Shown in pieces: positions 2,709 through 36,632 of a stretch of DNA of 38,570 nt. The notes below the pieces were generated by a model, which worked only from the letters and a program-made list of their open reading frames with translations, was not told where the DNA came from and searched no databases. Each line of letters begins with the position of its first letter. The first letter of the stretch is position 1. The stretch lies in NCBI GenBank assembly GCA_947630295.1, contig CANRGZ010000009.1:1-38570 (forward strand), given 5' to 3'. This stretch comes from an uncultured Lachnospiraceae bacterium (GTDB lineage: Bacteria > Bacillota > Clostridia > Lachnospirales > Lachnospiraceae). The translations under genes and the position numbers were made by a program.

Positions 2709-2773
2709 AAAACGATTCCTGTCAAACGCTTCGGAAGAAACCGTACAGGAATGGGTGAGGGGGCTTGATATTG

Positions 2774-20535: not shown

Positions 20536-23500
20536 ATGAAAAAGATGAACAGAACAAAAGCGGCAAAGGCTGCTCGTTCAGGCATCACTGCTTTACTGGC
20601 AGTCGTCATGGCAATGCCGGTTTCCGCGCTTACCGCGGCAGTGACCGCAGCGGTCAGTCCGGAAACAGCAGTTGTTGAGGCGGCAGACGTGGAAGTGCCC
20701 GATCCGATCATGGAGCTTGATTTCGAAAAAGGTTTCCAGGGTGAGGCAGCGAAAAACGAACTCAAGCCTGTGGGAGTTACTCCTCGTCTGATGTATGAAG
20801 AGCGCAAGGAAAACGGCGCTTATCCGGTAGATTCGTCGACCGGCAAATGGATTTTTGAATGGACGGACAATCCGGCGATTGAAGGCTCCACCGAGGCCGA
20901 TTACCATTATGTAACCGGTGTCGTCGGCAACCAGCCTACGACCTATGATGATCCCGAAATGGGCAACGTATTCCGTCTGGATTCCACGATGGAGATTGCC
21001 GAAAGATATAAAGATCATTCCGACAAGATGGACTTTTCGGTTCCGGTTTATTCAGCCGGCTTCAATGATGACGGCACACCGAAGGATGCCGAGGCTTATG
21101 AAAAGAGCATCATCCAGCCGGAACTGACGGCGCACAGCGCAGTTCAGATTAAGAACCCCTTTGCCGGCATGAACTTTACGGAGGATGAGAGCCACTGGAA
21201 GAAGGATTCCACCAGTCTGCCGAATGGCCCCCAGTGGGAAAAAGGCGTAACGATTGCTTACTGGGTTAAGGTTCCCGAGGCGCGGGAAGCGACAGAGGAT
21301 GATGATAAGGATGATATCTTAAACGACAGCGTACTCTTTACCTTTGAAAATATCCAGAGAACGGAAGATTCAACTGATCCCAACGGTGAAAATGTTACAT
21401 ATCATGTAGATGATCTGGTTAAGCATCAGGCGGCGGAAAATTATAAAGAAGATGATCCGCAGTATGCGCTTGGAACCAGAGAAACAGTTAAGGCAAAAGA
21501 CGGTACAGAGTATATCGTAGCGAAGGATTACGGCCCGCTGGTACGTCTGAACCCCAACTATGAAGGCACCGCGGAGAAAAAGATTTACTTTGAAGTCAAG
21601 GAAGGCGACGAGCACTGGAGCGGTTCTGAGAAGATAACCATTACAACAGACGCAGGCGAGACCAAGAACCTGTATCCGCTCGGACCGAATATTTACAATG
21701 CATTCAAGGAAACGGATCCGGCAAAGGGCAGCAGTATCAGAAGAGGCTATGTCAACGGCTCCATGCAGATCGCGGCTTCCGATGCTTTCCATTTCATGGA
21801 AGACGACTATGCAACAGAAACACAGCCCGACGGTTCATTCAGAGCTCTGAAGGGTGCCAAGGATCTTAACCCGAATACGGCAAAAGAGGGTGAGTTCATT
21901 GAACTGCGTAACAACAACCTGTTCTATTTTGAGGGAGATAAAACAGTTACCAGTAATCCGGATGAATGGCACTATGTAGTTTGTGTTATCCAGAATGACT
22001 GGGTTCAGTTCTATGTGGATGGCTACGCAGACTCAGAAGATGATTATGGATATCATGGTACGGCATTCAATGTAGAAAATGGTAAAAAGTATTTCAATAA
22101 AGGCTTTGGTATTCGCATGCCTTACCAAAGAGGTAAAGCGTGGAGTGGCGTAGCTGACTGGTCTGCAGACGGTACGATTGCTAAGAGCCCGGCCAATGCC
22201 GCAGCACGGACCATGCTGGAGTGGCTTTCCGATGAAGATACTGTCCTGTATCTGGGCAACCAGGGTTGCGCAGCCCAGTCAACTGATCAGGAAATCGGTA
22301 CGCTGGACGGCGTATTGATGGATGACATTAAATTCTTTGCAGAACCTCTGACAGAAGAACAGGCCACAGTGCTGTTCGACCAGGCAACGAAAGAAAAAGC
22401 CGGCGCCACGGATATTCCCAAACCGGTTCTTCAGATGAACTTTGAAGACGCTGAGGTGGGAAGTATTCCTTCAGGTCTGACAGGCTTCTCCGCCAATGAT
22501 ACAACCACCGGCGACAAAGCCGTCAAGGCACCTACTGTAGTTAATGAAGCAACATTCGGTAAGGTATTGAAACTGCATGAGAACAAGTCCCAGAAGACAA
22601 GCGCACTGCAGTTTACAAACCCGTTTGCAGGAAAGGATCTTTCCGGTGTGACGATTTCTTACTGGTTCAGAAGTGTTCCGGATAAGAACGGTGATATCGG
22701 CGAAGGCGTTACCGTAACGTTTGCCGACTCGCCGAAAAAACTTTCACATGATAAGATGCAGCCGGATGCAAGAGAAACAGAAACCAGAACCGGACTGTGG
22801 GTAAACAACAGCTGTGATGCAATGTTTATGGCAGGTGTGGATACAACGGTAAATACGACCCTGAAAAACCACTATCAGCAGTCCACAAAGAAAAACGGCA
22901 ATACAGACCCTAAGGAGAACGGCTACGATAAGGAAGCGGATGAGCTGGAAGACGAGTGGAATGCAAGACTGGCTTCTACTTCGGAATGGCATTTTGCAAC
23001 TGCGGTTATCAAGAACTCCGGTATCTATATGTACTTTGACGGAAAGAAACTGGACAACAATCTGGCGGATCCCCAGGGCCCTACTTTCTATGGCCCGAGA
23101 TTCTATGACGGATATTATCACAAATATCTGGATTCCTTCTCAAGTATTCGTTATGGTTCCGAGAATGCAGGTGCTACACCGCTGATGACTTTCCTGACGC
23201 AGGAAGATACAACTGCCTACTTCGGTATGATGTACAGACAGGGCAGTGCGCTGACTTACAGAGCAACTGTGGAAAGTTATCTCGATGACGTTAACTTCTA
23301 TGATGTGGCACTGAATGACGAGCAGATCCAGACACTGTATACAACAGCTCAGGCAGATGAGAAGTCAAAGAGCGCTGTTGCAGGCATTGCAGTGGATACG
23401 CCCGACTGGCAGGCAGGCGGTGCGGCGGAAGATCCGACAGGACCGGCGGAAGAAAATAAGGAAGAGACAAATCCGGGTACAATCAATGCAGATGGTTCCT

Positions 23501-24045
23501 GGAGTGCTTCCGCAAACGGTGTCAGCGTAACACTGCCGGCAGGCAGCTTCCCTGCAGAAGAAAGCTTAAGTCTGGCTGTAACGATCCTTGGCGCAAAGGA
23601 TTCTGCAGCGCAGTACACAGCCGCAAATGCAGCACTGAAAGGTGCAGGCATCGACGTTGACAAGCAGGTCATCACGCTTTACGATATGAAGGTATTGAAA
23701 GCGGACGGTGCGGAAATCACACCCACCGCAGAAGCGTCCATTACCCTGACGCCGCCTGCGGGATATACAGCGTCCAAGACATCCATCGTTCGTATGGCGG
23801 ATGTGAAGTCTATGGCAACCAGCGTTTCCGGTTCTTCTCTGGCATATCAGTCTGACAAACTGGGACAGTTTGCGGTTATGCAGCAGAAAACCAGCAGCGC
23901 CAGCGGCGACACCTCCAAGACAGGAACGTCTAAGGCAGGTCAGACGGGTGACGCGGCTTCCGTAGCGATTCCGTTTGTCCTTCTCGCAGCAGCTTTCTGT
24001 ACAATCGTAGTGATTCGCAGAAAAGAAGAGGCACTGGAAGACTAA
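20536..24045 (+). CDS. Large surface protein with two LamG-like modules and a C-terminal membrane anchor
   Basis: This 1169-residue secreted protein has a signal peptide (residues 1-32, AMPVSA). It contains two concanavalin-A/LamG-like modules with parallel landmarks. Module 1 (about 55-620) has PIMELDFEKGF, GVTIAYWVKVP, EWHYVVCVIQNDWVQFYVDGY and LDGVLMDDIKFF. Module 2 (about 626-940) has PVLQMNFEDAE, GVTISYWFRSVP, EWHFATAVIKNSGIYMYFDGK and YLDDVNFYDVAL. A further beta-rich domain covers about 975-1115. The C-terminus (QTGD, hydrophobic span, then RRKEEALED) resembles a sortase-type signal but lacks LPxTG. There is no dockerin. Such modules bind glycans or protein partners; the target is unknown. 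It has its own promoter and terminator. Confidence 0.8.
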   Translation: MKKMNRTKAAKAARSGITALLAVVMAMPVSALTAAVTAAVSPETAVVEAADVEVPDPIMELDFEKGFQGEAAKNELKPVGVTPRLMYEERKENGAYPVDSSTGKWIFEWTDNPAIEGSTEADYHYVTGVVGNQPTTYDDPEMGNVFRLDSTMEIAERYKDHSDKMDFSVPVYSAGFNDDGTPKDAEAYEKSIIQPELTAHSAVQIKNPFAGMNFTEDESHWKKDSTSLPNGPQWEKGVTIAYWVKVPEAREATEDDDKDDILNDSVLFTFENIQRTEDSTDPNGENVTYHVDDLVKHQAAENYKEDDPQYALGTRETVKAKDGTEYIVAKDYGPLVRLNPNYEGTAEKKIYFEVKEGDEHWSGSEKITITTDAGETKNLYPLGPNIYNAFKETDPAKGSSIRRGYVNGSMQIAASDAFHFMEDDYATETQPDGSFRALKGAKDLNPNTAKEGEFIELRNNNLFYFEGDKTVTSNPDEWHYVVCVIQNDWVQFYVDGYADSEDDYGYHGTAFNVENGKKYFNKGFGIRMPYQRGKAWSGVADWSADGTIAKSPANAAARTMLEWLSDEDTVLYLGNQGCAAQSTDQEIGTLDGVLMDDIKFFAEPLTEEQATVLFDQATKEKAGATDIPKPVLQMNFEDAEVGSIPSGLTGFSANDTTTGDKAVKAPTVVNEATFGKVLKLHENKSQKTSALQFTNPFAGKDLSGVTISYWFRSVPDKNGDIGEGVTVTFADSPKKLSHDKMQPDARETETRTGLWVNNSCDAMFMAGVDTTVNTTLKNHYQQSTKKNGNTDPKENGYDKEADELEDEWNARLASTSEWHFATAVIKNSGIYMYFDGKKLDNNLADPQGPTFYGPRFYDGYYHKYLDSFSSIRYGSENAGATPLMTFLTQEDTTAYFGMMYRQGSALTYRATVESYLDDVNFYDVALNDEQIQTLYTTAQADEKSKSAVAGIAVDTPDWQAGGAAEDPTGPAEENKEETNPGTINADGSWSASANGVSVTLPAGSFPAEESLSLAVTILGAKDSAAQYTAANAALKGAGIDVDKQVITLYDMKVLKADGAEITPTAEASITLTPPAGYTASKTSIVRMADVKSMATSVSGSSLAYQSDKLGQFAVMQQKTSSASGDTSKTGTSKAGQTGDAASVAIPFVLLAAAFCTIVVIRRKEEALED

Positions 24046-24147: not shown

Positions 24148-24180
24148 ATAGCAAAGATTTTTTTGAAAGGAATGTCGGAT

Positions 24181-27100
24181 ATGCATGCGGAGCAAAAAAA
24201 ACAGAAAATATCATCTGCCTGCCTGCAGCTGCTGATCATAGCACTGCTTGTCAGACTGCTGCTCAGCGGACTGATTAAAGGATTCAGTACCGATATCAAC
24301 TGCTTTACCGGTTGGGCAGATTCTCTGTTTTCGGATGGAATCAGAGGATTTTATACTTCCGGAGGTTTCTGTGATTATCCGCCCGGTTATCTGTATGTGC
24401 TTTGGCTGCTGGGAGGTCTGCGGAAGCTGTTTGGATTGACGGATTATTATGCGTTTACTTCGATGCTGCTCATCAAATTTCCTGCAGTACTGTGTGATAT
24501 GATTTCCGGCCTGTTGATTTATCGGTTTGGCAGAGAAAAGATCGGAGAGACCAATGCACTGATTTGTACGCTGCTTTATCTGTTTAATCCGGCGATTATC
24601 ATCAATTCGGCGGCATGGGGACAGGTAGACTCTATTTTTACCTTGTTTGCAGTCTTGACGATTTATTATATTTATAAAAAGAAAATGCCGTATGCGTATA
24701 TCGCGTTCTGTATCGGTTTTCTGATTAAGCCGCAGGTCGCATTTATCGCACCTGTTCTGCTTCTGGCCATTATAGAGCATGTATTTATGGATGGTTTCAC
24801 ATGGAATAAGTTTTTCAGAAACCTCTTTGCCGGACTGGGCTCCATTGCGGGACTGTTTTTGCTGATGCTGCCTTTTGGTATCGGTGATGTGCTTTCCCAG
24901 TATGTGAGTACGGTGACTTCCTATAAGTTTGCGTCGGTCAATGCGTATAACTTCTGGGCGATGCTGGGCATGAACTGGAAAGATCAGAACACAAAGGTTC
25001 TTGGGCTTCCGGCATTGTTCTGGGGTATGTTTTTTGTTGTGTGCGTGTTTGCATTTACGATATGGTTCTGGTGGAAGCGGAAGAATGACCGTTCAAAATA
25101 CTTTTTCATGGCGGCCTTTCTGATTACGGGCGTATTTACGCTGTCGGTGCGTATGCATGAGCGGTATATGTATCCGGCGCTGATCCTGCTGATTCTTTAT
25201 TATGTGGTCAATCCGCGGATTGAAACCATATGTCTGTACTTTGTGTTATCAGCGGTTCATTTTCTGAACGTTATACATGTGTTTGTCTGTTATGATCCGG
25301 CAACCTATAACTGGGATGATCCGTCCAGAGCAATCATCGGCGCTTTCATGTCGCTGGCGTATGCTTTCATGATATTCTGTTTTTTCCGCTTTTTGAAGCA
25401 GAAGGGATCAGGGAAAAAAATTGCGTTAAAGCAAATTTTTTCCCTGCGAAGCAAGGAAGCGGATTCCAAAGGCAAAAAACATCGGTTTACGTCCCGTCCC
25501 ATGGCAAGGATAGAAAAGAAGGACATTCTGATTATGCTGGTGATTACGCTGCTGTATTCTGCAGTCGCCCTGTTTCAGCTGGGAGATCTGCAGGCCCCGC
25601 AGTCGGGTTGGACCGCGAAAACGGCAAATGAGCAGTATGTCTTTACTTTTGATCAGCCGGTACGGATCCAGAAGATCTGGTACTATCTGGGCAATTATCA
25701 CAATCCCCACTTTGATTTTGAAGTGCAGGATGGGGATGGCGCATGGGTGAAGGTGCTGGACGATCAGGAATTTAAAAGCGTTTTCAACTGGTCGGATCAG
25801 ACATTTACGCAGGTTGTGGAAACCCGGGCCGTGCGTATGACATCCCTGTCAGAACAGGCTTCGATCTGGGAACTGACTTTTGTGGATGGAGATGGAAATT
25901 ATATTACGCCGTCAAATCCGGAAGTCTGTCCCGCCCTCTTTGACGAGACAGATCTGATTCCGGAACGGGAATCCAAACTAAACGGTACGTATTTTGATGA
26001 AATTTATCATGCCAGAACCGCATGGGAATATACCCAGGGCATTTACAGCTATGAGTGGACCCATCCGCCTCTTGGAAAGATATTCATCATGTTCGGCATT
26101 CTGATTTTCGGAATGGTGCCTTTCGGCTGGCGGATTGCCGGCACCGTTTTCGGAATCATTATGCTGCCCTGCATTTACGTATTTGCAAAAAAAATGTTTT
26201 CGAAACGCTGGATCGCGACCACCGCCATGCTGATGTTTGCGGCGGATTTCATGCATTTTACACAGACACGGATCGCAACCATCGACGTGTTTGTTACGCT
26301 GTTTATCATCCTGATGTATTATTATATGTATAAATACACGCAGATGAGCTATTATGACAGGAAGTTCAGCAAAGTGATGATTCCGCTGGGACTGTCCGGT
26401 ATGATGATGGGCTTTGCCATGGCAAGCAAGTGGACAGGCGTTTATGCGGCCTGCGGTCTGGCAGTGATCTTTTTCGCAGATTTGTGGCGCAGATACGGTG
26501 AATACCGGTACGCGAAAACAAAACCACAAGGGAGTACAGACGGTATTTCCCACAGCAGGGTGATCCGGGAATTTCCGCTGCGCACGAAACAGACGATTCT
26601 GCTCTGCTTTTTGTTTTTCATCTTTTTGCCGCTGCTCATTTATGTGCTTTCATATATTCCGTTTGTAAGCCGGGAAGGCCAGAGCCTGCTGCAAAAAGCG
26701 TACAAAAACGCGATTGATATGTACAATTATCATTCCAATCTTGTATCGGAGCATGCGTATTCCTCCAAATGGTATCAGTGGCCGCTGATGACACGGCCCA
26801 TGTGGTATTATTCCTACCATGTAAACGATACGATTTCGGAAGGCATCAGCGCCTTTGGAAATCCGCTGATCTGGTGGGCAGGCATTCCCGCATTTTTCTA
26901 CGTCTTATATCGGATGATCAAAAATCGCGACAGAAACGCAGGTTTTCTGGTGATCGGATATCTGGCGGAATATCTGCCCTGGATGTTTGTGGATCGGACC
27001 ACCTATATTTATCATTATTTCCCGTCGGTGCCGTTTGTGATTCTGATGCTCTGCTACAGTTTTCAGCAGTTTGTCAAAGACAATACCCGTCGGAAATATG

Positions 27101-27234
27101 CGGTATACGTCTATATCGCAGTGATGATTATACTGTTTGCAATGTTCTATCCGGTGCTTTCGGGATATCCGGTGGACAAAAACTATGTGTTTACCTGGCT
27201 GCGGTGGTTCAAATCCTGGACTTTAGTGACATAA
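24181..27234 (+). CDS. Fusion of two GT-C glycosyltransferases; C-terminal half is protein O-mannosyltransferase-like
   Basis: This is a 1017-residue polytopic membrane protein. ATG 24181 is chosen because AAAGGA (24166-24171) touches the alternative ATG 24172. The N-terminal half (about 1-405) is GT-C with TD38INCFTGWA and D65YPPGYLYVLW, a pattern of polyprenyl-phosphate-sugar-dependent GT87-type mannosyltransferases. After a basic linker (about 410-440) the C-terminal half (445-1017) matches PMT/GT39, with the catalytic loop FD606E607IYHARTAWEY and THPPLGK. Between its first span and that loop lies a beta-rich segment (about 470-580) resembling a discoidin fold. PMT enzymes attach a sugar to Ser/Thr of exported proteins. 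It is directly upstream of the cohesin genes, whose Thr/Pro linkers are plausible acceptors. The fused architecture and the target are inference. Confidence 0.85.
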   Translation: MHAEQKKQKISSACLQLLIIALLVRLLLSGLIKGFSTDINCFTGWADSLFSDGIRGFYTSGGFCDYPPGYLYVLWLLGGLRKLFGLTDYYAFTSMLLIKFPAVLCDMISGLLIYRFGREKIGETNALICTLLYLFNPAIIINSAAWGQVDSIFTLFAVLTIYYIYKKKMPYAYIAFCIGFLIKPQVAFIAPVLLLAIIEHVFMDGFTWNKFFRNLFAGLGSIAGLFLLMLPFGIGDVLSQYVSTVTSYKFASVNAYNFWAMLGMNWKDQNTKVLGLPALFWGMFFVVCVFAFTIWFWWKRKNDRSKYFFMAAFLITGVFTLSVRMHERYMYPALILLILYYVVNPRIETICLYFVLSAVHFLNVIHVFVCYDPATYNWDDPSRAIIGAFMSLAYAFMIFCFFRFLKQKGSGKKIALKQIFSLRSKEADSKGKKHRFTSRPMARIEKKDILIMLVITLLYSAVALFQLGDLQAPQSGWTAKTANEQYVFTFDQPVRIQKIWYYLGNYHNPHFDFEVQDGDGAWVKVLDDQEFKSVFNWSDQTFTQVVETRAVRMTSLSEQASIWELTFVDGDGNYITPSNPEVCPALFDETDLIPERESKLNGTYFDEIYHARTAWEYTQGIYSYEWTHPPLGKIFIMFGILIFGMVPFGWRIAGTVFGIIMLPCIYVFAKKMFSKRWIATTAMLMFAADFMHFTQTRIATIDVFVTLFIILMYYYMYKYTQMSYYDRKFSKVMIPLGLSGMMMGFAMASKWTGVYAACGLAVIFFADLWRRYGEYRYAKTKPQGSTDGISHSRVIREFPLRTKQTILLCFLFFIFLPLLIYVLSYIPFVSREGQSLLQKAYKNAIDMYNYHSNLVSEHAYSSKWYQWPLMTRPMWYYSYHVNDTISEGISAFGNPLIWWAGIPAFFYVLYRMIKNRDRNAGFLVIGYLAEYLPWMFVDRTTYIYHYFPSVPFVILMLCYSFQQFVKDNTRRKYAVYVYIAVMIILFAMFYPVLSGYPVDKNYVFTWLRWFKSWTLVT

Positions 27235-27381
27235 ATGGAAAAACTACGAATGGATTTCAGCGTAAAATACAGATGAAATCCGGGTATTCAGCTTGATTTT
27301 TTGTAATGCGTCTGATAAACTGAAATACAGGGTTATATGCTTATTTCTGAAAAATACAAATCAAAAAGAAAGGGAAAAAAC
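27235..27381 (+). promoter_or_regulatory. Promoter region of the cohesin-dockerin gene (TTGATT-N17-TAAACT)
   Basis: TTGATT at 27293-27298 and TAAACT at 27316-27321 are 17 bases apart. Upstream, GGATTTCA and TGAAATCC (about 27252-27280) form a weak stem-loop that is not followed closely by a T-run, so I do not call it a terminator. Confidence 0.55.
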
Positions 27382-28134
27382 ATGAGACTGAAAAAGATCA
27401 TCACGATTACACTGATCGTATCGCTGCTTGCAACGCTGTTCAGTATGATCGCGTTTGCTGAGGGAGAAAAACCGAAGGTATATCTTGCGGACACTTCGGC
27501 TTATAAAGTCGAAAGAAACGCAACGGAAATCGTCGTGCCCATCTGCGTGGAGGGCGAGATCGACATGCAGTGTTTTGATATCACGGTAACCTATGATAAA
27601 TCCAGTCTGGCCCTTGTCCCGGATAAGGAAAAGACATTCATCGAAATGAAAGAGGATGAGGAATATTCATATTATGATATGAATACCGAAACAGACGGAA
27701 CCGTGGTTTTTGCCGGCGTGACGGTGGATGAGTCCATGAAGAGCAAAACCGGAAGGATTGGCCAGCTGACATTCACATCAAAGAAAAGGATCAGCAAGGA
27801 CGGAACAACAACCGAACTGGGACTTTCGGTGGCAGAACTGGGACTTGGAACGGAAGTTGCCGATATTGAGGTAAAGCCGGATGCGACGGTTACCATGAAC
27901 GTCAGTGAAGATCCGAATACGCCGGAACCGGTAAAAGCCGGTGATGTCAATCAGGACGGAAACATCGACGCAAGCGACGCGCTGCTGATTCTGAAGCATG
28001 CCGCCAGGATGGAAACCCTGGAGGGCGACGCTTTAAAGGCAGCGGATGTGAATACGGATACCTCCGTCAACTCCACCGATGCATTGGATGTTCTGAAATA
28101 TGCGGCGCATCTGATCGATCATTTTGGCAATTAG
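27382..28134 (+). CDS. Cohesin-dockerin adaptor protein
   Basis: This 250-residue secreted protein starts at ATG 27382 with AAAGGGA upstream. It has a signal peptide (1-26, MIAFA). Residues about 31-175 have the cohesin beta-sandwich pattern: VYLADTSAYKVERNATEIVVPICVEG, then CFDITVTYDKSSLAL, TVVFAGVTVDES, and GRIGQLTFTSKK. Residues 186-246 are a dockerin with loops DVNQDGNIDASD and DVNTDTSVNSTD. The second loop has T in place of the usual Gly. It has no membrane anchor. A protein with both a cohesin and a dockerin is an adaptor in cellulosome terms: it can bind one partner's dockerin and itself dock on another cohesin. It lies between the glycosyltransferase and the anchored cohesin. Confidence 0.85.
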   Translation: MRLKKIITITLIVSLLATLFSMIAFAEGEKPKVYLADTSAYKVERNATEIVVPICVEGEIDMQCFDITVTYDKSSLALVPDKEKTFIEMKEDEEYSYYDMNTETDGTVVFAGVTVDESMKSKTGRIGQLTFTSKKRISKDGTTTELGLSVAELGLGTEVADIEVKPDATVTMNVSEDPNTPEPVKAGDVNQDGNIDASDALLILKHAARMETLEGDALKAADVNTDTSVNSTDALDVLKYAAHLIDHFGN

Positions 28135-28274: not shown

Positions 28275-29000
28275 ATGAAAAAGTTATTAGCAATCGTTAT
28301 GGTTGCAGTCATGGTATTCTCCATGAGCGCTGTTGCTTTTGCTGAAGAAGATGCTGCAAGACCTTATACAGTATCTTACACAGCGCAGACAAACGAAGAT
28401 GGTTCCATTACGATCTCCGTTTATGCAAAGGGTAATGTACAGGCTTATGATGTAGGTATTTCCTACAAAGATACAGGCGCTACGGTAAAAGAATTTGCTA
28501 CATCCGCAGATTTCAAGAGTGCTGTATCTCCGCTCGACGTTGCGAACGATGTTAAAGATGAAAGTTATATTGTATTCACCGGCGCAGCGCTTAGCGATGC
28601 TGCTAAGGAATATGATGGAATCATCGGTTCTGCTACTTTCACAGATGTTACCGATGCCGCTAAGTTCCAGATTATTGCTGACACAGCGAAATCTGAGCAG
28701 TTTGCAGTAACAACTCCTGATAACCCTATTGATATTAAGCCGTATGAAGCTCCGACAGAGGCTCCGACTCCGGAACCTGCTGATGAGACTGAGGCTCCTG
28801 CTGGTGACGCAACTCCGGCTCCTGGTACTCCTGGTACCGATGCAACTCCGGCTCCTGCTGGTCCGACCACTGCTCCTACGAACACTGGTTCCGGCAATGC
28901 TGCAAAGACCGCTGATGTTGCTCCTGTAGCTGCAATGGTTACTCTGGTACTTATGGCTGGCGCTGTACTTGTTGTATTAAAGAAACGCGCTGCAGAATAA
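28275..29000 (+). CDS. Membrane-anchored cohesin protein with Pro/Thr linker
   Basis: This 241-residue protein has a signal peptide (1-23, AVAFA). It has one cohesin-like domain (about 31-147; ISVYAKGNVQAYDVGISYKD, then SYIVFTGAALSD and IIGSATFTDV) and a 50-residue Pro/Thr/Ala linker (157-208). A C-terminal span (217-235) is followed by KKRAAE. The sequence before the span, KTADVAP, resembles the KTGD-type sorting or anchor motif of clostridial surface proteins with TG changed to TA. A single cohesin on the membrane would hold one dockerin partner. Codons are strongly GCT/GGT/ACT-biased compared with the GC-ending neighbours, as expected for a highly expressed gene. It has its own strong promoter and terminator. 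The cohesin fold is divergent. Confidence 0.78.
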   Translation: MKKLLAIVMVAVMVFSMSAVAFAEEDAARPYTVSYTAQTNEDGSITISVYAKGNVQAYDVGISYKDTGATVKEFATSADFKSAVSPLDVANDVKDESYIVFTGAALSDAAKEYDGIIGSATFTDVTDAAKFQIIADTAKSEQFAVTTPDNPIDIKPYEAPTEAPTPEPADETEAPAGDATPAPGTPGTDATPAPAGPTTAPTNTGSGNAAKTADVAPVAAMVTLVLMAGAVLVVLKKRAAE

Positions 29001-29032
29001 TCCATAGCGATTGACTGAAAAAAGATTTTTCG

Positions 29033-29062
29033 GACCCCCGTATCTTACGGGGGTCTTTTTTT
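29033..29062 (+). terminator. Intrinsic terminator after the anchored cohesin gene
   Basis: GACCCCCGTA (29033-29042) pairs with TACGGGGGTC (29046-29055) across TCT, followed by seven T (29056-29062). Confidence 0.95.
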
Positions 29063-29098
29063 GTGCGGAATCATCCGGCGTATTCCCGAAAAAAGCCA

Positions 29099-29127
29099 TT
29101 GACAGACGGATGGTGCCTTGTTATCTT
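29099..29127 (+). promoter_or_regulatory. Promoter TTGACA-N17-TATCTT of the pectin-enzyme operon
   Basis: TTGACA (29099-29104) and TATCTT (29122-29127) are 17 bases apart, between the preceding terminator and ATG 29176. This is the only clear promoter I see before the six genes up to 38096. Confidence 0.65.
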
Positions 29128-29175
29128 TTTATTATAGAATTAAATTGGGGTATTCTATGTATGAGGAGGGGCAGC

Positions 29176-32100
29176 ATGAAAAAATTATTGATATGGGTTC
29201 TGGCATTGCTGCTGCCGGTCAATGCTTTTCTTATGGGCAGCGGTCTTTGCCTGAAAGAAGTGGAAGCGGCGGCCGACGATAGGCTGGAACTCTGGTACGA
29301 TGAATCTGCAAAAGCAGATTTCTATGAGATTTACGCGAAAAAGTATAAGTGGCTTGGGGGAAAGGGCGACGGTTTTCTGGAATTTGGCCGCTCCGACCCG
29401 CAGAATTATGTGGACGGGAAAAACCATTCCAATGATTCTGCCTACAGTGAAAGCGGCAGAGTTACCAAGGCAGTAGAGGACGGCGTTGCATGGGCCAAAC
29501 ACGCGCTTCCCATCGGAAACGGGCACATGGGAGCCATGATATTCGGTTATACGGACACAGAACGGGTACAGATGAATGAAGACACGCTCTGGACCGGCGG
29601 CCCGGGCTGTGTCTCAGTGCTGGATGCGTCCAATAACGCAGATGCCTATGGGAATGTCAATCTGGAAGATCCGGCGGCATTAATGGGTCAGCTGGTAGAC
29701 AACGCATTTGACAATTATTACGAGAGTCTGAAAACCGGGAAAATGCCATCCACTGACAAGGATAACGCGTCGCCGTATCAGAACGGCCTGACGCCCAATT
29801 CCAAAGAACAGGAAGGCTCCTACCAGAACTTTGTAGAGATGTACCTGGATTTCGGGATCAAAGAAGAAGAGACGGAAAATTATCGCCGCAGCCTGCATCT
29901 GGATACGGCGGTCTCGGAAGTGAAATATCGTCATGAGGGAGTCGATTACAGCAGAACCATGTTTGCCAGCTATCCGGATGATGTGCTGGTGTACCGGGTG
30001 GAAGCATCCGGCACGGGGAATGTTTCGTTTCGCCTGCATCCGGAAATCCCGAATCGGGAAATCTACACCGGCAGATATAACAGTACGGCGGGGGACGGCG
30101 CAGCGAAGTATGGAAAAGAAGGAAATGTAGTGGCAGAGGGCGATACCATTTCGGTCACCGGTTCTCTGAAACACAACGGGATGAAATTTGCGGCGCAGTT
30201 TAAGGTCATTTCCGAAGGCGGAACTATGAGGGCGGACAATGCACCGGCAGCGGAGATGGATGCCAACGGAAGCATCACCGTAAACGGTGCGGACAGCGCC
30301 TGGATTGTGATTTCCATGAAAACAGACTATGTCTGTGATTTTGACAGAAACTATACCAGCGGCGAAAGCCTGCCGGAACTGACAGCGGCGCTGGAAACAA
30401 AGGTAGAAGCGGCGGCAGCAAAGGGCTATGCGCAGCTTTACGATGCCCACGAAGCGGATTATACGAAGCTGTTCGGCCGGGTACAGCTGGATATCGGCGG
30501 GGAAAACCCGGATATGGCCACGGATGATTTGCTGCAGCAATATAAAAAGAATAACGGAAAAAACAGCGCAGACGCCAGATATCTGGAAACTCTGTATTAT
30601 CAGTACGGAAGGTATCTGCTGATTGCGTCGTCAAGGGACAATTCGCTTCCGGCCAACCTGCAGGGGGTGTGGAATGATACGGATGCACCTGCCTGGTCGT
30701 CGGATTATCACACCAATATCAATGTGCAGATGAATTACTGGCTCGCGGAGCAGGCCAATCTGGCAGAGACGGCCACCTGTCTGGTGGATTATGCCAATGC
30801 GCTGCGCAAACCCGGAAGGCTTTCCCTGGCGAAGCTCTACGGCATCGGTTACCGACCGGATTCGGAGGATATTGATCTGGAAACAGAAGACGGATTTATC
30901 TTTTTCTGCAATACCACGCCTCTGGGCTTTACGGGCAATATCAAGTCCAATGCTTCGTTTACGGCCACAGCGACGGCGTTTCTGGCGCAGAATCTGTATG
31001 ATTACTATGCTTTTACCAAAGATCTGGATTATCTGCGCAGCGATATCTATCCTTTCCTGCGGGAGAGCTGCATTACCTATCTGCAGACGCTGCAGCCGGG
31101 CAGAGGGGAAAATGATAAAGACCGGCTGTATATTGTACCGTCCTGGTCATCGGAACAGACCCGTTCCCCCTGGACGGTAGGCACATATTTTGACCAGCAG
31201 CTGGTATGGCAGCTGTTCCACGATACGCTGCAGGCCATGGAAGATCTGGGCATTTCGCCTGCGGCAGACGCCGGTACGGACGACAGCTACATGCAGGATG
31301 ATGCCATATTGATGGCGCGGATACAGGACGCCATCGGCCGGCTGGATCCGGTGGCTGTCGGTGCGGACGGACAGATTAAGGAATGGCAGCAGGAGGAACG
31401 CTACAACAAGACGGCAAACGGCGCAGAAATCGGTGAATCCAATCACCGGCACATTTCCCAGCTGATGGCGCTGTATCCGGGAAATTATATCAGCTGCGCA
31501 GACAATAAAGAGGAACTGATTCAGGCCGCACAGGTGGTGCTGAAAGAACGAACCGACGAATCTACAGGATGGGGACTGGCATACCGGCTCAATCTGCAGG
31601 CCAGGACCGGGGACGGCGATCATGCGCATCAGCTGGTCAATGCTCTGCTGACGACGGCTACATATCCGAATTTGTTCGATACCCATGCGCCTTTCCAGAT
31701 TGACGGTAATTTCGGCGCAACCGCAGGCATGACCGAAATGCTGCTGCAGAGTCAGGGGAAAGCGATAGAGATTCTGCCGGCACTTCCGTCGGCATGGAAG
31801 GACGGTTCTTATGAAGGACTGGTGGCAAGAGGCAATTTTGAAGTCAGCTGCAGCTGGAAGAACGGGACCGCATATCGGGTAAAGATCCGGTCCAACGCGG
31901 GAGAACCGCTGAAACTGTCCGGCATTGATGCAGAGACCATAAAAGACGCAGACGGTGTGCCTGTGGCGTATACCATGGAAGATGGCTGCATTTGCCTGGA
32001 TACGGAAAAAGGCGGTATCTATACGATGCAGACGGCAGATGCGCCGGAGGAGACGCAGACACCGGATCCCGGCAAGGATATTCTGCCCGGCGATGTGGAT

Positions 32101-32298
32101 GGAAATCGGGATGTGAATGCCGGGGATGCATTACTGGTACTGCAGTATGCGGCCCATCTGATTCCATTGGAAAAAGAACAGAAGCTTGCCGCTGATGTTA
32201 CGGGAGATGAGGACATCACGGCCGCGGATGCACTGATGATTTTAAAATATGCCGCGAAGCTGATCAATGCATTTGTTCAGCAGGAGGATGGTACTTGA
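29176..32298 (+). CDS. GH95 family alpha-L-fucosidase/galactosidase with C-terminal dockerin
   Basis: This 1040-residue secreted enzyme starts at ATG 29176, preceded by GGAGGGG; earlier in-frame codons fall in the terminator and promoter. It has a signal peptide (1-35, EVEAAA). The GH95 catalytic region (about 85-950) shows PIGNGHMGAMIFG (from 112), MNEDTLWTGGP (133-143), WNDTDAPAWSSDYHTNIN (499-516) and IDGNFGATAGMTEM. The HTNIN asparagines correspond to those used by the B. bifidum GH95 fucosidase. E660 in PSWSSEQ is a candidate general acid. The dockerin (970-1034) has loops DVDGNRDVNAGD and DVTGDEDITAAD. GH95 enzymes cleave alpha-1,2-fucose, or L-galactose as in rhamnogalacturonan-II and xyloglucan; the pectin context favours a plant substrate. 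First gene of the operon. Confidence 0.92.
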   Translation: MKKLLIWVLALLLPVNAFLMGSGLCLKEVEAAADDRLELWYDESAKADFYEIYAKKYKWLGGKGDGFLEFGRSDPQNYVDGKNHSNDSAYSESGRVTKAVEDGVAWAKHALPIGNGHMGAMIFGYTDTERVQMNEDTLWTGGPGCVSVLDASNNADAYGNVNLEDPAALMGQLVDNAFDNYYESLKTGKMPSTDKDNASPYQNGLTPNSKEQEGSYQNFVEMYLDFGIKEEETENYRRSLHLDTAVSEVKYRHEGVDYSRTMFASYPDDVLVYRVEASGTGNVSFRLHPEIPNREIYTGRYNSTAGDGAAKYGKEGNVVAEGDTISVTGSLKHNGMKFAAQFKVISEGGTMRADNAPAAEMDANGSITVNGADSAWIVISMKTDYVCDFDRNYTSGESLPELTAALETKVEAAAAKGYAQLYDAHEADYTKLFGRVQLDIGGENPDMATDDLLQQYKKNNGKNSADARYLETLYYQYGRYLLIASSRDNSLPANLQGVWNDTDAPAWSSDYHTNINVQMNYWLAEQANLAETATCLVDYANALRKPGRLSLAKLYGIGYRPDSEDIDLETEDGFIFFCNTTPLGFTGNIKSNASFTATATAFLAQNLYDYYAFTKDLDYLRSDIYPFLRESCITYLQTLQPGRGENDKDRLYIVPSWSSEQTRSPWTVGTYFDQQLVWQLFHDTLQAMEDLGISPAADAGTDDSYMQDDAILMARIQDAIGRLDPVAVGADGQIKEWQQEERYNKTANGAEIGESNHRHISQLMALYPGNYISCADNKEELIQAAQVVLKERTDESTGWGLAYRLNLQARTGDGDHAHQLVNALLTTATYPNLFDTHAPFQIDGNFGATAGMTEMLLQSQGKAIEILPALPSAWKDGSYEGLVARGNFEVSCSWKNGTAYRVKIRSNAGEPLKLSGIDAETIKDADGVPVAYTMEDGCICLDTEKGGIYTMQTADAPEETQTPDPGKDILPGDVDGNRDVNAGDALLVLQYAAHLIPLEKEQKLAADVTGDEDITAADALMILKYAAKLINAFVQQEDGT

Positions 32299-32370
32299 AC
32301 GGCATTTTCAGGCGATTATGCAGACGCATCGGTAATTCTAATCAAAAATTGAGCAGCGGAGGAAAATGTA

Positions 32371-32793
32371 ATGAAAGCAGAAGAAAAAGAAACAATCACA
32401 TTGGAAGAACAGGAAGGAACGGTGATTACACCGGAACCGGACGTACAGGCAGAACCGATTGAGAATACGGCGGAAGACGACAGCATGGTGCAGGCAGGTG
32501 CGGAATCTGCGCAGGCAGAAGCGGATGCAGCAGACGAAGTCCCGGAGAAGGATGAAACGACACAGTCGGAGCCTGTGACGGAAGCGGAAGCATCTGCAGC
32601 AGAAGATGCGGGAGAACCCGGGGAAGACAGTGAAGTCTGGCTGCAGGACGACGAAGATACGGAAATCGAAGAAGAAAAGAAAACCGGCAAAGGCCGTTTG
32701 TCCGCAGTCTTTGGTGTGATCGGCGGATTGATTCTTGCAGCAGCAGCGGCGGTATCTGTTCTGCTGTGGCGGAAAAAGAATCCGAAACAGTAG
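32371..32793 (+). CDS. Highly acidic single-span membrane protein
   Basis: This 140-residue protein has GGAGG before ATG 32371. It has no N-terminal signal peptide. Residues 1-105 are very acidic and low complexity, rich in Glu, Asp, Ala and Thr, and probably disordered. KKTGKGR (103-109) precedes one hydrophobic span (about 110-132), which ends in WRKKNPKQ. Basic residues on both sides make the topology uncertain. It could be a tail-anchored protein with its acidic part in the cytoplasm, or part of a surface complex. I recognise no family. It sits between the GH95 enzyme and an anchored cohesin whose own tail is also acidic, suggesting a supporting role in the same system. Confidence 0.6.
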   Translation: MKAEEKETITLEEQEGTVITPEPDVQAEPIENTAEDDSMVQAGAESAQAEADAADEVPEKDETTQSEPVTEAEASAAEDAGEPGEDSEVWLQDDEDTEIEEEKKTGKGRLSAVFGVIGGLILAAAAAVSVLLWRKKNPKQ

Positions 32794-32881
32794 AAGGTAA
32801 TGGATGCTGCATTGCAAGTGACAGAATATAAGCTGTTTTTGAACAGCAAAAGCATAAGGCAGGCAGAGAAAGGGATTTCAT

Positions 32882-33643
32882 ATGAAAAAAATAGTTATGC
32901 TCTTATTTACAGCGGCGGCGCTGGTATTCTTCTGTTTTTCCGCCTGTGCGGAAGAAACGAAAATCAGCTACCATATTGAATACGAAGGCGATCAGGCGAC
33001 GGTTTATTTTCAGTCGGAATCTTTAAGCGCCTTTGATTTCGGATTTATTTACGATCCGGCGGAGGTGACGATCGAGGATATCGTTTACTCGGATTACTAT
33101 CAGCAGCTGGTACAGACCAGCGGTAATTCCGTGATGGCCGTGGAAAATCCTGCGGCGCAGGATGATGAAGGCAATACCTATGTGGTTGTCACCGGAATAG
33201 CGATGAACGGGTCAAGCGGAGAACCACTCCAATTTTCTTCGACGCAGGAGATTGCGCATATTGTGATTTCCGGTATCAGCGAAGGGGATATCATCGGTGT
33301 TGTTTCGGAGACGGCGTCTGTTAAGGATGTCAGAAATGCAAACAAGATCGCGGCAGTAGATTTGAGCAAACAGCAGGAAGTAACAGACAGCGATATCTTT
33401 GCGGGTGCACAGGAAGAACCGGAGGACAACGCAGGCGGAGACAATTACGGCGAGGCGGCAGACAACAGTCCGGACGCAGAGAATGGTGCGGGCAATGATA
33501 CATGGATTTATGTGCTTGTCATCGCCGCAGTAATCATCGTTGTGGCCGTATTGATTGTAATTTCGAAGAAGGGACATGCCGCAATCGAGGAATCCGAGCC
33601 GGAAACGCCCGAAGAGGAGCTATCAGAGACGCAGGATGAATAA
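32882..33643 (+). CDS. Second membrane-anchored cohesin protein
   Basis: This 253-residue protein has AAAGGG seven bases before ATG 32882. It has a signal peptide (1-23); SAC near its end is a possible but weak lipobox. The cohesin-like domain (about 27-165) has ISYHIEYEGDQATVYFQSESLSAFDFGFIYDPAEVTI, TYVVVTGIAMNG and IAHIVISGI. An acidic linker (172-202) leads to a membrane span (about 205-226) with SKKG after it, then a 25-residue acidic tail (EESEPETPEEELSE) predicted on the cytoplasmic side. This differs from the other anchored cohesin, which ends right after its span. It lies within the pectin-enzyme operon, 21 bases before the pectate lyase gene. It probably holds one dockerin enzyme at the membrane. 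Confidence 0.75.
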   Translation: MKKIVMLLFTAAALVFFCFSACAEETKISYHIEYEGDQATVYFQSESLSAFDFGFIYDPAEVTIEDIVYSDYYQQLVQTSGNSVMAVENPAAQDDEGNTYVVVTGIAMNGSSGEPLQFSSTQEIAHIVISGISEGDIIGVVSETASVKDVRNANKIAAVDLSKQQEVTDSDIFAGAQEEPEDNAGGDNYGEAADNSPDAENGAGNDTWIYVLVIAAVIIVVAVLIVISKKGHAAIEESEPETPEEELSETQDE

Positions 33644-33664
33644 ATCAGCAGGAAAGGGAAAGAT

Positions 33665-35533
33665 ATGTTAAAACGGGGAAAAAGGGGTTTTACAGCGATG
33701 CTGCTGGCCGGCGTGCTGATACTGTCTTTTGGGTGGACGGTACAGGCAGCGCAGATCCAGGGCAGCCTGAATCAGGCATTGAAATTTGGCGACGTTGACA
33801 ATAACGGAACCGTGGATGCGGCAGACGTGCTGGAACTGCTGAAGGTACTGACCGGAAATTATCAGGCGCAGCCCTTTCATCAGAATGCAGGGGATTTGAA
33901 CAAGGACGGCAGGCTTTCTGTGCGGGATGCCCTGCTGCTGCTGCAGAATATTGCGAAGCAGCGGGATGACAAGCTGGGATATAAACCGTATTTGCAGGAA
34001 ATCCGGTATGCAGTGCCGGCTGTTTTTGCCGATGACAGCATGGTTTTGAAAGAAAGCGCCCTTGCCTTTCCCGGCGCGGACGGCTGGGGCAAATATACCA
34101 GCGGCGGCCGGGGCGGCCAGGTCATTGCGGTGACAAGCCTGGCGGACAGCGGACCGGGTACCCTGCGGGATGCGCTGGAAACTGCCGGAAAACGGGTGAT
34201 CGTATTTCAGGTTTCCGGTGTGATTTATCTGAAAAGCAATCTGGCTGTCAAAAACGGGGATGTGACCGTTGCGGGCCAGACAGCCCCCGGAGACGGCATT
34301 ACACTGGCTAATTACGGAATGAGCATTACTGCGGAAAATGTCATTGTACGTTATCTGTCCATACGGCCCGGCGATCAGACGGGGGATGAACTGGACGGTA
34401 TCGATATCTGCGGTGCGAAAAATGTCATTGTGGATCACTGCAGCGTTTCCTTTGCCACCGATGAGGTACTGTCGGCCAGACCGAATGGAGACGGCGTAAA
34501 CTATGACGAAGTGAGCGACAAGGTTTCTGTGCAGTGGTGTATGATTGCTGAAAGCATTACGCAGTCCCCAAATTCATCGAAAGGCCGTCACGGGATGGGT
34601 TCGCTGATTCGCGGCGCCCAGGGGGCGGAAATCACCTATCACCATAATCTGTACGTCAGCCACAGCTCCCGATTGCCGATGATGGGCAATTATATGGCGA
34701 AAGAAGCAGACAACGGCAATTTCAAGGCAGAATTTATTAATAATACGGTATTTAACTGGAACGGATCCGCATCCGGCAAATGCTCGGATGCAGACCCGGA
34801 GGGACTGGCTGTACATGTTTCAAGCTTTAATTATATCGGCAATTACTACCGGCCCGGCAGTGTTTCCGTGAAAGGCGACAGTTATGTCTTTTCGGAAGGC
34901 GGCATCGGAAACCATATGTATATGGAAGACAATATCATGGAGGACAGGCCGGATGCGTCACAGAAAGATCTGCTGATGTTTACCAATGATGTGCTGGCAA
35001 CCAGTGAAAATCCCTATTACTGGGATGAAAAAGCAAATGCGCCGAAGGAACAGGGTCTGGTGATCGATCAGGAAGATTATTTCCTGACGGAGCGCTTTGC
35101 GGATTCTGAAATGGCACAGATTGACGATGCCCGGGAAGCCAACCACGCGGTGCTGCAGCTGGCGGGAAATTCGCTGAGCAGAGACTGCTTTGATACGGCA
35201 CTGCTGCGTGATTATGAAGCCGGCAGCGGCAAGCTGATCAATCAGACCTTTGAAGCTGCAGGCTGGTACAGAGGAACGCCGGAAAACAACAGAGGAACCG
35301 GCTATTACGAGTGGATGCAGGGCAAATACCCGGATCGGGCCAGCTACCCTGCGGAAATCGATACGGATCAGGACGGTATGAGCGATGCATGGGAAACGGC
35401 TGTGGGCCTGAATCCGGCAGTTCCCGACGGTGCCGGGGCCTTCAGGGGGTCGGCATATACGAATCTGGATGTATATTTACAGTTTCTTGTGGAGCAGCCG
35501 GAAGCGGCGATTCTGCACGGAGAAGTAAAGTAA
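33665..35533 (+). CDS. Dockerin-pectate lyase (PL1-like)
   Basis: This 622-residue secreted enzyme has a signal peptide (1-29, TVQAA) and an N-terminal dockerin (41-100) with loops DVDNNGTVDAAD and DLNKDGRLSVRD. The catalytic right-handed beta-helix runs from about residue 128 (ALAFPGADGWGKYTSGGRGG), with GTLRDAL, VIVFQVSGVIYL, TVAGQTAPGDGITL, VD257HCSVSFATDE and HHNLYVSHSSR336LPMMG, where Arg336 is the likely catalytic base of the PL1 superfamily. It cleaves de-esterified homogalacturonan by calcium-dependent beta-elimination. A C-terminal DTDQDGMSDAWE segment is a calcium-binding TSP3-like motif frequent in such lyases, not a second dockerin. It is placed beside esterases that would expose its substrate. 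Confidence 0.9.
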   Translation: MLKRGKRGFTAMLLAGVLILSFGWTVQAAQIQGSLNQALKFGDVDNNGTVDAADVLELLKVLTGNYQAQPFHQNAGDLNKDGRLSVRDALLLLQNIAKQRDDKLGYKPYLQEIRYAVPAVFADDSMVLKESALAFPGADGWGKYTSGGRGGQVIAVTSLADSGPGTLRDALETAGKRVIVFQVSGVIYLKSNLAVKNGDVTVAGQTAPGDGITLANYGMSITAENVIVRYLSIRPGDQTGDELDGIDICGAKNVIVDHCSVSFATDEVLSARPNGDGVNYDEVSDKVSVQWCMIAESITQSPNSSKGRHGMGSLIRGAQGAEITYHHNLYVSHSSRLPMMGNYMAKEADNGNFKAEFINNTVFNWNGSASGKCSDADPEGLAVHVSSFNYIGNYYRPGSVSVKGDSYVFSEGGIGNHMYMEDNIMEDRPDASQKDLLMFTNDVLATSENPYYWDEKANAPKEQGLVIDQEDYFLTERFADSEMAQIDDAREANHAVLQLAGNSLSRDCFDTALLRDYEAGSGKLINQTFEAAGWYRGTPENNRGTGYYEWMQGKYPDRASYPAEIDTDQDGMSDAWETAVGLNPAVPDGAGAFRGSAYTNLDVYLQFLVEQPEAAILHGEVK

Positions 35534-35561
35534 GTGATTTGGAGTAAAGAGGAGAAAAGAC

Positions 35562-36578
35562 ATGAGAAATAAGGTTTGCCGTGCGGCGTTTGTTTGCTGT
35601 ATCCTGCTGGTTTTGCTGTGTCTGCCAGGTATGACGGCAGCAGCTGCGGATGCGGACGCAGTGGCCGGAGATCTGGATGGAAATGGCCGTGTGACCCTGC
35701 GGGATGTGCTGGTCGTACTGAAAGCAGCCGCAAAAATGGAGACGCTGGAGGGAGAAAAACAAGCCGCTGCGGATGTAAACGGAAACGGAAGCGTGGATGC
35801 CAAAGATGCGCTTTTGCTCTTCAAAAAAGCGGTAGGGAAGCTTTATTATCTGCCGGGCGAAAAAATTGAAGCCTCGGGACAGATTTACATTGCGGGAGAT
35901 TCCATTGCTTCTAAGCATGACGAGGATCCGACCTATCAGCGGCAGCTGGTGGGATGGGGCGTCGTGCTGGGGGATCTGTTTGATGCGTCCGTAAACGTAC
36001 ACAATGAAGCCCGTTCCGGAGCCAGTGCAAAAAGCTATCTGCAAACTACAAATTATCCGGCTTTTATCAATCAGCTGGCAGCGGGGGATTATTTCCTGAT
36101 CTCCTTTGGGCACAATGATGAGAAGGTCTCGGATCCCGGCCGGTATACCGATCCGGAGGGGGATTCTGCTACGCCGGAATCTTACAAGTGGTATCTGAAG
36201 AAATATTATATAGAACCGGCAGTACGGGCAGGGGCGTATCCGGTATTGCTGTCATCGGTGGTCCGTTGTACCTTTGATATGGAGGGTGTACTGATGGCAC
36301 AGAGCCATGCGTCCTATGCCGCAGCTATGGCGGAACTGGCAGAGGAGTGCCGGGCAGAAGGACTGCAGGTGGGTTACATCGATCTGCAGAAGCTGACCGG
36401 AGATTATTACCGTACTGTGGGGCAGACGGAGGCGGAAAGCCTCCATGCATTTGACGCAGAAAAGCTGGATACGACCCATTACTGCGAAAAGGGCGCCAGG
36501 CTGGCTGCGCAGATCATAACGGAAGAAATGCAGCGGCAGGAATATGATATATGCAGATTCCTGAAGACGGTGCAGTAA
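35562..36578 (+). CDS. Dockerin-CE12 esterase (rhamnogalacturonan acetylesterase type)
   Basis: This 338-residue secreted SGNH hydrolase has AGAGGAG before ATG 35562. It has a signal peptide (1-29) and an N-terminal dockerin (36-95) with loops DLDGNGRVTLRD and DVNGNGSVDAKD. The catalytic domain (108-338) has block I GDS114I, a Gly in block II (ARSGASA), block III G183HND186, and block V D303TTH306. This is the full SGNH set of CE12. The family removes acetyl groups from rhamnogalacturonan-I or other pectin acetyl esters. It works with the lyase and methylesterase encoded beside it. The stop codon is closely followed by leader hairpin element copy C. Confidence 0.9.
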   Translation: MRNKVCRAAFVCCILLVLLCLPGMTAAAADADAVAGDLDGNGRVTLRDVLVVLKAAAKMETLEGEKQAAADVNGNGSVDAKDALLLFKKAVGKLYYLPGEKIEASGQIYIAGDSIASKHDEDPTYQRQLVGWGVVLGDLFDASVNVHNEARSGASAKSYLQTTNYPAFINQLAAGDYFLISFGHNDEKVSDPGRYTDPEGDSATPESYKWYLKKYYIEPAVRAGAYPVLLSSVVRCTFDMEGVLMAQSHASYAAAMAELAEECRAEGLQVGYIDLQKLTGDYYRTVGQTEAESLHAFDAEKLDTTHYCEKGARLAAQIITEEMQRQEYDICRFLKTVQ

Positions 36579-36579
36579 A

Positions 36580-36609
36580 CAGGCGCGCCTTTTAAGGGCG
36601 CGTGTGCCG
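36580..36609 (+). repeat. Leader hairpin element, copy C
   Basis: CGCGCC (36584-36589) pairs with GGCGCG (36597-36602) across TTTTAAG, then GTGTGCCG, the 3' end shared with copies A (776-806) and B (10227-10255). It begins right after the CE12 stop and ends 24 bases before the CE8 start, with GAGAGG between. Confidence 0.55.
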
Positions 36610-36632
36610 CAACCTGAGAGGACGAAAAGACG

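Follow-up and report, generated by a model that had tools for sequence, protein, structure and literature searches.

The window examined here, the whole stretch of 38,570 nucleotides, is an entire contig (C9) of an uncultured Lachnospiraceae bacterium (NCBI GenBank assembly GCA_947630295.1, contig CANRGZ010000009.1; genome 1.92 Mb, 97% complete) and encodes a 1017-residue protein that, by structural modelling, is two complete glycosyltransferase folds of the GT-C type in one chain. We rate at slightly better than an even chance that this fusion is a bifunctional membrane protein O-glycosyltransferase, an initiator plus an extender, for the Thr/Pro linkers of exported proteins. The C-terminal half (C half) is very probably a protein O-glycosyltransferase, the main targets are likely Thr/Pro linkers of exported proteins, and whether the N-terminal half (N half) adds the next sugar is about an even call. 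The strongest evidence that the two halves act on one product is distributional: they are fused in many genomes and adjacent in many others.

Under the proposed mechanism, the active-site loops of both halves would face outside and the donors would be single sugars linked to polyprenyl phosphate. Initiation would fall to the C half (GT39), which would transfer a sugar to Ser or Thr of Thr/Pro-rich linkers or stalks as exported proteins emerge. A CBM32-like domain in its first outer loop might bind the acceptor or a stretch that is glycosylated already, and onto this first sugar a further one would be joined by the N half (ALG6/PIG-M/GT87-like). Targets in this dockerin-rich gut Lachnospiraceae would include linkers of dockerin enzymes and stalks of anchored cohesins, among others, within a general clostridial system; that cohesin or dockerin stalks are among the targets in this strain is rather probable. 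The topology, the donors, extension by the N half and the actual targets are what we infer. Occurrence of the fusion or of the neighbouring pair in many related bacteria suggests a common machine sugaring exported proteins, beyond cohesin neighbours. Plausible, if slightly short of probable, is the full version of this view: a widespread clostridial O-glycosylation machine, made as one polypeptide or from two adjacent genes, that starts and lengthens an O-glycan outside the cell, with an ALG6/GT87-type enzyme re-purposed to glycoproteins and coupled to a GT39 initiator with a built-in CBM32 reader.

Architecture of the fusion protein

The open reading frame (ORF) starts at ATG 24181 and its stop codon is 27232-27234; if the in-frame TTG at 24163 were used as the start instead, the protein would be 1023 residues long. 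An earlier note on this DNA had described 24181-28134 as one 1017-residue protein. The length was right and the range too long, a single protein over that span being ruled out by the stop; 27337-28134 is a separate cohesin+dockerin gene. An AlphaFold2 model of the whole protein, with 59 aligned fusions as input, has a mean predicted local distance difference test score (pLDDT) of 89.9 and a predicted template modelling score (pTM) of 0.65, with pLDDT below 50 in residues 1-7 and 410-431 only, and the structural ranks given below for both halves come from this one full-chain model. The 59 fusions are the window protein and those of 58 of the 79 fetched named loci, partial, near-duplicate and odd-start rows having been removed by hand, and 34 of the 59 were used for domain scans of relatives. 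The nearest named relative, from another uncultured Lachnospiraceae bacterium (L029), shares 94% protein identity. The two-enzyme architecture read in the earlier note is borne out by two intact GT-C folds in the model and by conserved acidic residues in the alignment. Obvious tandem duplication was rejected on a poor half-against-half profile alignment (hhalign probability 0.5%), though PMT_2 matches both halves.

The C half exceeded the cut-offs of three Pfam families (PMT_4TMC 8.4e-27, PMT_2 8.8e-20, PMT 1e-13), all of which were matched (E 0.01) by 34/34 relatives, and a profile search returned Pmt1 at 1.6e-20. Residues 443-1017 matched the fold of fungal Pmt4 (9i5l; Z 36.7, root-mean-square deviation [rmsd] 2.6, 422 aligned), followed by other Pmts (Z 34-35) and ArnT (25.6). 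The FDE motif containing D606-E607 aligned with FDEVHF of Pmt1 (D77-E78), in agreement with the PMT/GT39-like half that the earlier note had described around these two residues. The NCBIfam equivalog NF058602 (PrMnsylTfPmt, cut-off 800 bits) was missed by both the whole protein (88.2 bits) and the C half (97.4). Between the first span of this half (446-463) and D606, where the earlier note had placed a discoidin-like segment and proposed structure prediction over 470-580, residues 477-569 were modelled as a beta sandwich at pLDDT about 92. A Foldseek search with the full chain matched CBM32 chains to it (e.g., 5zu6 and 4a42; jelly-roll fold), while F5_F8_type_C fell below its Pfam cut-off in the window protein (0.00044, 20.8 bits vs 28.2) and was matched at E <=0.1 by 20/34 relatives.

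When scanned alone, the N half exceeded the GT87 Pfam cut-off (1.2e-7, 32.1 bits vs 25), overturning an impression of absence gained from a whole-protein scan in which GT87 was not listed; 27/34 relatives matched GT87 as well. PMT_2 also matches the N half scanned alone (1.7e-8), and because it scores slightly above GT87 the CAZy family of this half is left open. A profile search returned GPI mannosyltransferase 1 at 1.2e-9, and residues 12-414 matched the fold of yeast ALG6 (6snh; Z 29.0, rmsd 3.0, 390 aligned), followed by ALG3 (28.1), GPI mannosyltransferase I (25.3), PIG-U (23.0) and PimE (20.4). After the first span stands D38, a candidate catalytic Asp of the GT-C outer loop. D38, P68, D150, H326, R328 and Y329 are invariant in 59/59 aligned fusions, E327 nearly so, and D65, Y66, P67 and G69 are conserved at >=90%, consistent with the GT87-like half with D38 and a DYPPG motif named in the earlier note. 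Under the positive-inside rule, basic loops lie on the cytosolic side of the membrane. Because the linker between the halves is basic (12 K/R, 3 D/E) and the loop bearing the sandwich is acidic (9 K/R, 22 D/E), this rule would place the linker on the cytosolic side and the two acidic motifs together on the outer face of the membrane.

Distribution of the halves and of Thr/Pro linkers

Three collections were used: named loci (the best 80 of 548 relative-encoding stretches, giving 79 loci, nearly all covering most of the query), a sample of 150 genomes of the window's family and a class sample of 391 genomes. The named loci overlap with the family sample, in that L032/G098, L034/G054, L084/G009 and L092/G074 look like the same records. 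GT39 was found in 135/391 class genomes and the N half (E 1e-10) in 145/391; both halves occur in 124 genomes, the N half only in 21, the C half only in 11 and neither in 235 (Fisher p 4e-65, with the 391 genomes taken as independent). Among the 135 GT39 genomes, a single frame encodes both halves in 58, and in 36 the N half lies upstream, on the same strand and no more than 4 kb from the C-terminal PMT domain. For the remainder, the N half lies within 6.4 kb in 4, far apart in 2 and on other contigs or strands in 23, some halves scored as lying in different places being contig breaks; 12 have no N half among the matches listed (11 by the genome-wide table). We regard the halves as functionally linked because of this sharing of a frame, adjacency and co-occurrence, and the division of labor that the earlier note had proposed, one half attaching and the other extending, is a plausible mechanism. 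In the family sample, PMT_4TMC was over its cut-off in 16/150 genomes, 10 of them with the full fusion; a separate C half was found in G014, G015, G087 and G111, two contig ends of G135 look like a broken fusion, and G100 is truncated at a contig end. In a quickly built tree with weak root branches, most stand-alone C halves branch close to the root; one, L018, is nested among the fusions and comes from a genome that carries a fusion as well.

A literature search limited to open-licence papers found no description of a GT87-GT39 fusion, which is not proof that it is unpublished. Within that limit, three elements are new: a fused arrangement that is widespread in clostridia, a genomic link between N half and GT39, and the correlation with Thr-Pro repeats described next; the kind of each half was already known, as was, from a published knock-out, the effect of losing a stand-alone enzyme with the layout of the C half (PMC6151902).

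Thr/Ser/Pro-rich stretches were defined as 20 residues, at least half of them Thr/Ser/Pro, with Thr/Ser >=4 and Pro >=3, lying <=60 residues from a dockerin. Such stretches stood beside 26/80 dockerins in four fusion genomes (5, 7, 6 and 8 of 20) vs 0/37 in four fusion-less genomes (Fisher 1e-5), the 37 cases not being independent in that these dockerins often share one helical tail. Dockerins taken were 20/37 (G000), 20/27 (G098), 20/49 (G152) and 20/41 (G157) for the fusion genomes, and 20/22 (G140), 8/9 (G027), 4/5 (G051) and 5/5 (G029) for the fusion-less ones. A conserved, helical-looking stretch with a terminal ARL-type motif precedes the dockerin in G140 (L140-L159) and G027 (L220-L227), replacing the Thr/Pro linker; GT39 is not over its cut-off in either genome. 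At the level of whole genomes, a TPxPTxTP-type DNA pattern occurred at least 4 times in 8/10 fusion genomes vs 26/140 others (medians 9 vs 0, Mann-Whitney p 1e-4), with G135 scored as not fused, and in 6/8 once the two dockerin-rich fusion genomes were left out (p 0.001). A reversed control pattern showed no difference between fusion genomes and other family genomes. When read in Anaeromicropila populeti, which carries the L034 fusion, the repeats belonged to secreted proteins (GDSL, GH18, GH43 and GH10), to one that is adhesin-like and to a single cohesin protein. At L253:4533-5822 in G054, where dockerin matches number only 2, a CBM3 and a cohesin occur together with a Thr/Pro linker in a minimal, scaffoldin-like protein.

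O-glycosylation of Thr/Pro linkers by the C half is supported by the knock-out of a similar enzyme cited above (Cbes_1864), by the enrichment of GT39 described below, by the linkers beside dockerins and by the genome-wide repeats.

Weighing the alternatives

The earlier note had further assigned the fusion to cohesin and dockerin linkers, naming a distribution unrelated to cohesins as evidence to the contrary. A dedicated enzyme of this kind is very improbable. Pfam cohesin was present in 3/10 fused family genomes vs 46/150 overall; association by this route was dropped because the profile misses the window's own cohesins in a whole-genome search, and dockerin was therefore used as the marker. 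The tree offers dedication some support, as dockerin matches are numerous in fusion genomes near the window (37 in its own genome, 54 in L029, 18 in L030, 49 in L031, 27 in L032 and 41 in L036) and 5/8 dockerin-rich fusions form one supported clade, 6/8 falling within a wider one. Elsewhere in the tree L048 (10 matches) and L102 (14) are dockerin-rich, and against dedication the other 29/36 fusion genomes checked, drawn from the 79 named loci, have 0-4 dockerins. Across the class, where up to 16 matches were counted per genome and first-look candidates define the richest set, GT39 is enriched in dockerin-rich genomes (>=10 matches; 20/28 vs 115/363 others, p 4e-5) and present in 16/17 genomes with >=60 first-look candidates, in favor of a dockerin link; the fused form, however, is not enriched (1/28 vs 57/363, p 0.10). 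Both the window and L029 do have a cohesin gene next to the fusion, but 30/80 loci share another upstream neighbor, most of them in a conserved operon without cohesins, and the A. populeti linkers lie on enzymes and an adhesin-like protein as well as on one cohesin protein. The distribution of the fusion is therefore not tied to cohesins. Half of the dockerin-rich class genomes (14/28) come from two families (f29 and f55), and those of f55 have the two halves located apart. The comparison suggests that large dockerin systems usually keep GT39 and that the extender is optional, its fusion to GT39 being a general trait in its own right.

Two further readings accept the C half as described and differ over its partner. 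The N half might glycosylate a lipid-linked or cell-wall acceptor, its link to the protein O-glycosyltransferase being a shared polyprenyl-phosphate-sugar donor and membrane site; this is unlikely. ALG6, ALG3, PIG-M (GPI mannosyltransferase I) and PimE, the closest folds, are all known to act on lipid-linked or glycolipid acceptors, yet the tight linkage to GT39 and the small number of genomes with the N half only point to one common product. Alternatively, and somewhat less likely again, the N half could be a non-catalytic partner that stabilizes or positions the C half in the manner of PIG-U, a GT-C-fold subunit without transfer activity of its own. PIG-U does match this half, by Pfam in 4/34 relatives as well as by fold, and mean conservation among the aligned fusions is lower in the N half than in the catalytic C part (0.52 vs 0.66); the invariance of D38, D150, H326, R328 and Y329, with E327 nearly so, and the persistence of separate N-half genes next to C-half genes argue for a working enzyme.

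Several observations weigh against an initiator-extender acting on Thr/Pro linkers. The structural relatives of the N half, as noted, use lipid-linked acceptors or, for PIG-U, are no enzymes. At least 4 Thr-Pro matches also occur in 24/134 GT39-less family genomes, and G039 has 138 TPxPTxTP-type matches with no GT39 over cut-off, repeats that this enzyme family cannot explain. In f29, GT39 stands alone in 7/7 very dockerin-rich genomes, none of which gave an N-half match at E 1e-10; the N half is therefore dispensable for such dockerin systems. On the donor side, the window's genome has a GT2 resembling PgfS (described below) at C36, beside GT4 and GMP/ManC-like genes and matching at 1.8e-65 the GT2 encoded next after the L034 fusion, but a PgfS-like GT2 is also present in both fusion-less genomes tested, so that this gene shows availability only. 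The Fisher tests, moreover, take related genomes and dockerins as independent.

Neighboring genes and known systems

Coordinates of the fusion, its parts and the surrounding genes are collected in Table 1.

Table 1. Features of the fusion gene and its surroundings in the window
Feature	Position	Strand	Basis
LamG-type surface protein, directly upstream of fusion	20536..24045	+	Pfam, locus comparison
GT-C fusion gene, 1017 residues + stop	24181..27234	+	ORF call, Pfam scan, alignment, AlphaFold2
N half, residues 1-406, ALG6/PIG-M/PimE/GT87-type GT-C fold (D38 at 24292-24294)	24181..25398	+	Pfam, profile, structure
Inter-half linker, basic, unconserved, residues 407-445, probably cytosolic	25399..25515	+	Model, charge count (12 K/R, 3 D/E)
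C half, residues 440-1017, GT39/PMT-type GT-C fold	25498..27231	+	Pfam, profile, structure
CBM32/discoidin-like beta sandwich, residues 477-569, first outer loop of C half	25609..25887	+	Pfam (weak), model, Foldseek
D606-E607 catalytic motif, first outer loop of C half	25996..26001	+	Aligned with yeast Pmt1 D77-E78; invariant 59/59
Secreted cohesin+dockerin protein, adaptor-like, without Thr/Pro linker	27337..28134	+	Pfam, composition
Cohesin-like protein, Thr/Pro stalk (about 28752-28871), C-terminal hydrophobic anchor; candidate acceptor	28275..29000	+	Composition, low-confidence model
GH95 + dockerin enzyme	29011..32298	+	Pfam
Anchored protein, resembling cohesin in alignment only, without Pfam match or Thr/Pro stalk	32882..33643	+	Alignment, composition

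The window and L029-L032 share ispG, polC, the LamG surface protein and then the fusion, ispG lying beyond the contig end in L032; the LamG gene is directly upstream in L029, L030 and L032, and one predicted short ORF intervenes in L031. A search for the fusion beside other cohesin genes, as proposed in the earlier note, found a Pfam cohesin gene as the next downstream gene at two loci only, those of the window and L029, and cohesin adjacency was rejected as a conserved trait: this position is held by a cohesin+dockerin gene in L029, a sub-threshold cohesin in L031, metabolic genes in L030 and a second LamG protein in L032. At 30/80 loci (the 79 plus the window), the fusion is preceded by a gene of ~300 residues, rhomboid-like by eye and without a Pfam or NCBIfam match. 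Downstream of the fusion there often comes a conserved group of genes, one of them a DUF2953 gene, and no cohesin was recognized in this setting. Labels read by eye are ispG, rhomboid-like cluster 1, GerW, L28 and Asp23 in the conserved operon, and aldolase/kinase/dehydrogenase in L030.

The downstream genes had been described as encoding cohesin proteins with Thr/Pro linkers, which is half right for each: 27337-28134 has the cohesin and no linker, and 28275-29000 has the stalk and no Pfam cohesin match, cohesins being the top structural matches of its low-confidence model (pLDDT 54.6). Of the candidate acceptors in the window, only 28275-29000 bears a Thr/Pro stalk (half S/T/P over 40 residues); 27337-28134 and 32882-33643 lack one. 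An anchored cohesin protein with a long repeated Thr/Pro stalk, of the same layout as 28275-29000, is encoded at L027:1384-2355 (G098). Further along the window, 29011-38096 holds a series of dockerin-bearing pectin-type enzymes (GH95, pectate lyase, GDSL esterase and pectinesterase). At 1423-2199 and 2765-4090, dockerins have unusual partners, PF18050 (cyclophilin-like) and DUF362, which suggests that the complex also takes up non-carbohydrate enzymes.

If the proposed reading is true, the N half would be the glycan-extending step for clostridial linker glycans. Fusion, adjacency and co-occurrence over 391 genomes make the N-half enzyme one specific candidate partner, and a one-protein O-glycosyltransferase would be handy for glycosylating designer cellulosomes.

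The C half is reminiscent of fungal Pmt1, Pmt2 and Pmt4 in its GT-C fold (Z 34-37) and in the FDE motif. In contrast to these enzymes, the window protein shows no MIR among its Pfam matches, carries a CBM32-like domain in loop 1 instead and is fused to a second GT-C enzyme. The N half has the fold of ALG6, ALG3, PIG-M, PimE and GT87, and differs from these enzymes of glycolipid acceptors in being tied, covalently or genomically, to a protein O-glycosyltransferase. The Pgf system of Streptococcus mutans (PgfS-PgfM1-PgfE-PgfM2) resembles the present one, as described, in a PgfS-kind GT2, a membrane protein of the PMT-2 subfamily, Thr-rich surface targets and a location near a target; its membrane proteins, however, are separate and that description notes no CBM32-like domain (PMC5856776). 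Linkers of Clostridium thermocellum and Caldicellulosiruptor bescii are reported to carry mostly O-galactose (PMC5939190), so the family name "mannosyltransferase" is not to be taken as naming the sugar here. Ruminococcus bromii Sas20 has a Thr-rich linker that is possibly O-glycosylated, as stated there without data (PMC9112005). Clostridial cellulases and cellulosomes have O-glycosylated linkers, yet the portions of the cited papers on this glycosylation drawn on here name no enzyme for glycan growth past the first sugar. Closest by published description is Cbes_1864 of C. bescii, a 556-residue GT39 membrane enzyme encoded near celA and other plant-wall-degrading genes; most cellulose degraders, C. 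thermocellum among them, are reported to have homologues (PMC6151902). Its deletion is reported to have abolished detectable protein glycosylation, left CelA unstable and impaired growth on Avicel (PMC6151902). Cbes_1864 has a carbohydrate-binding-like domain in loop 1 (residues 32-124), the same layout as the C half, but it stands alone, without an N-terminal GT-C half (PMC6151902).

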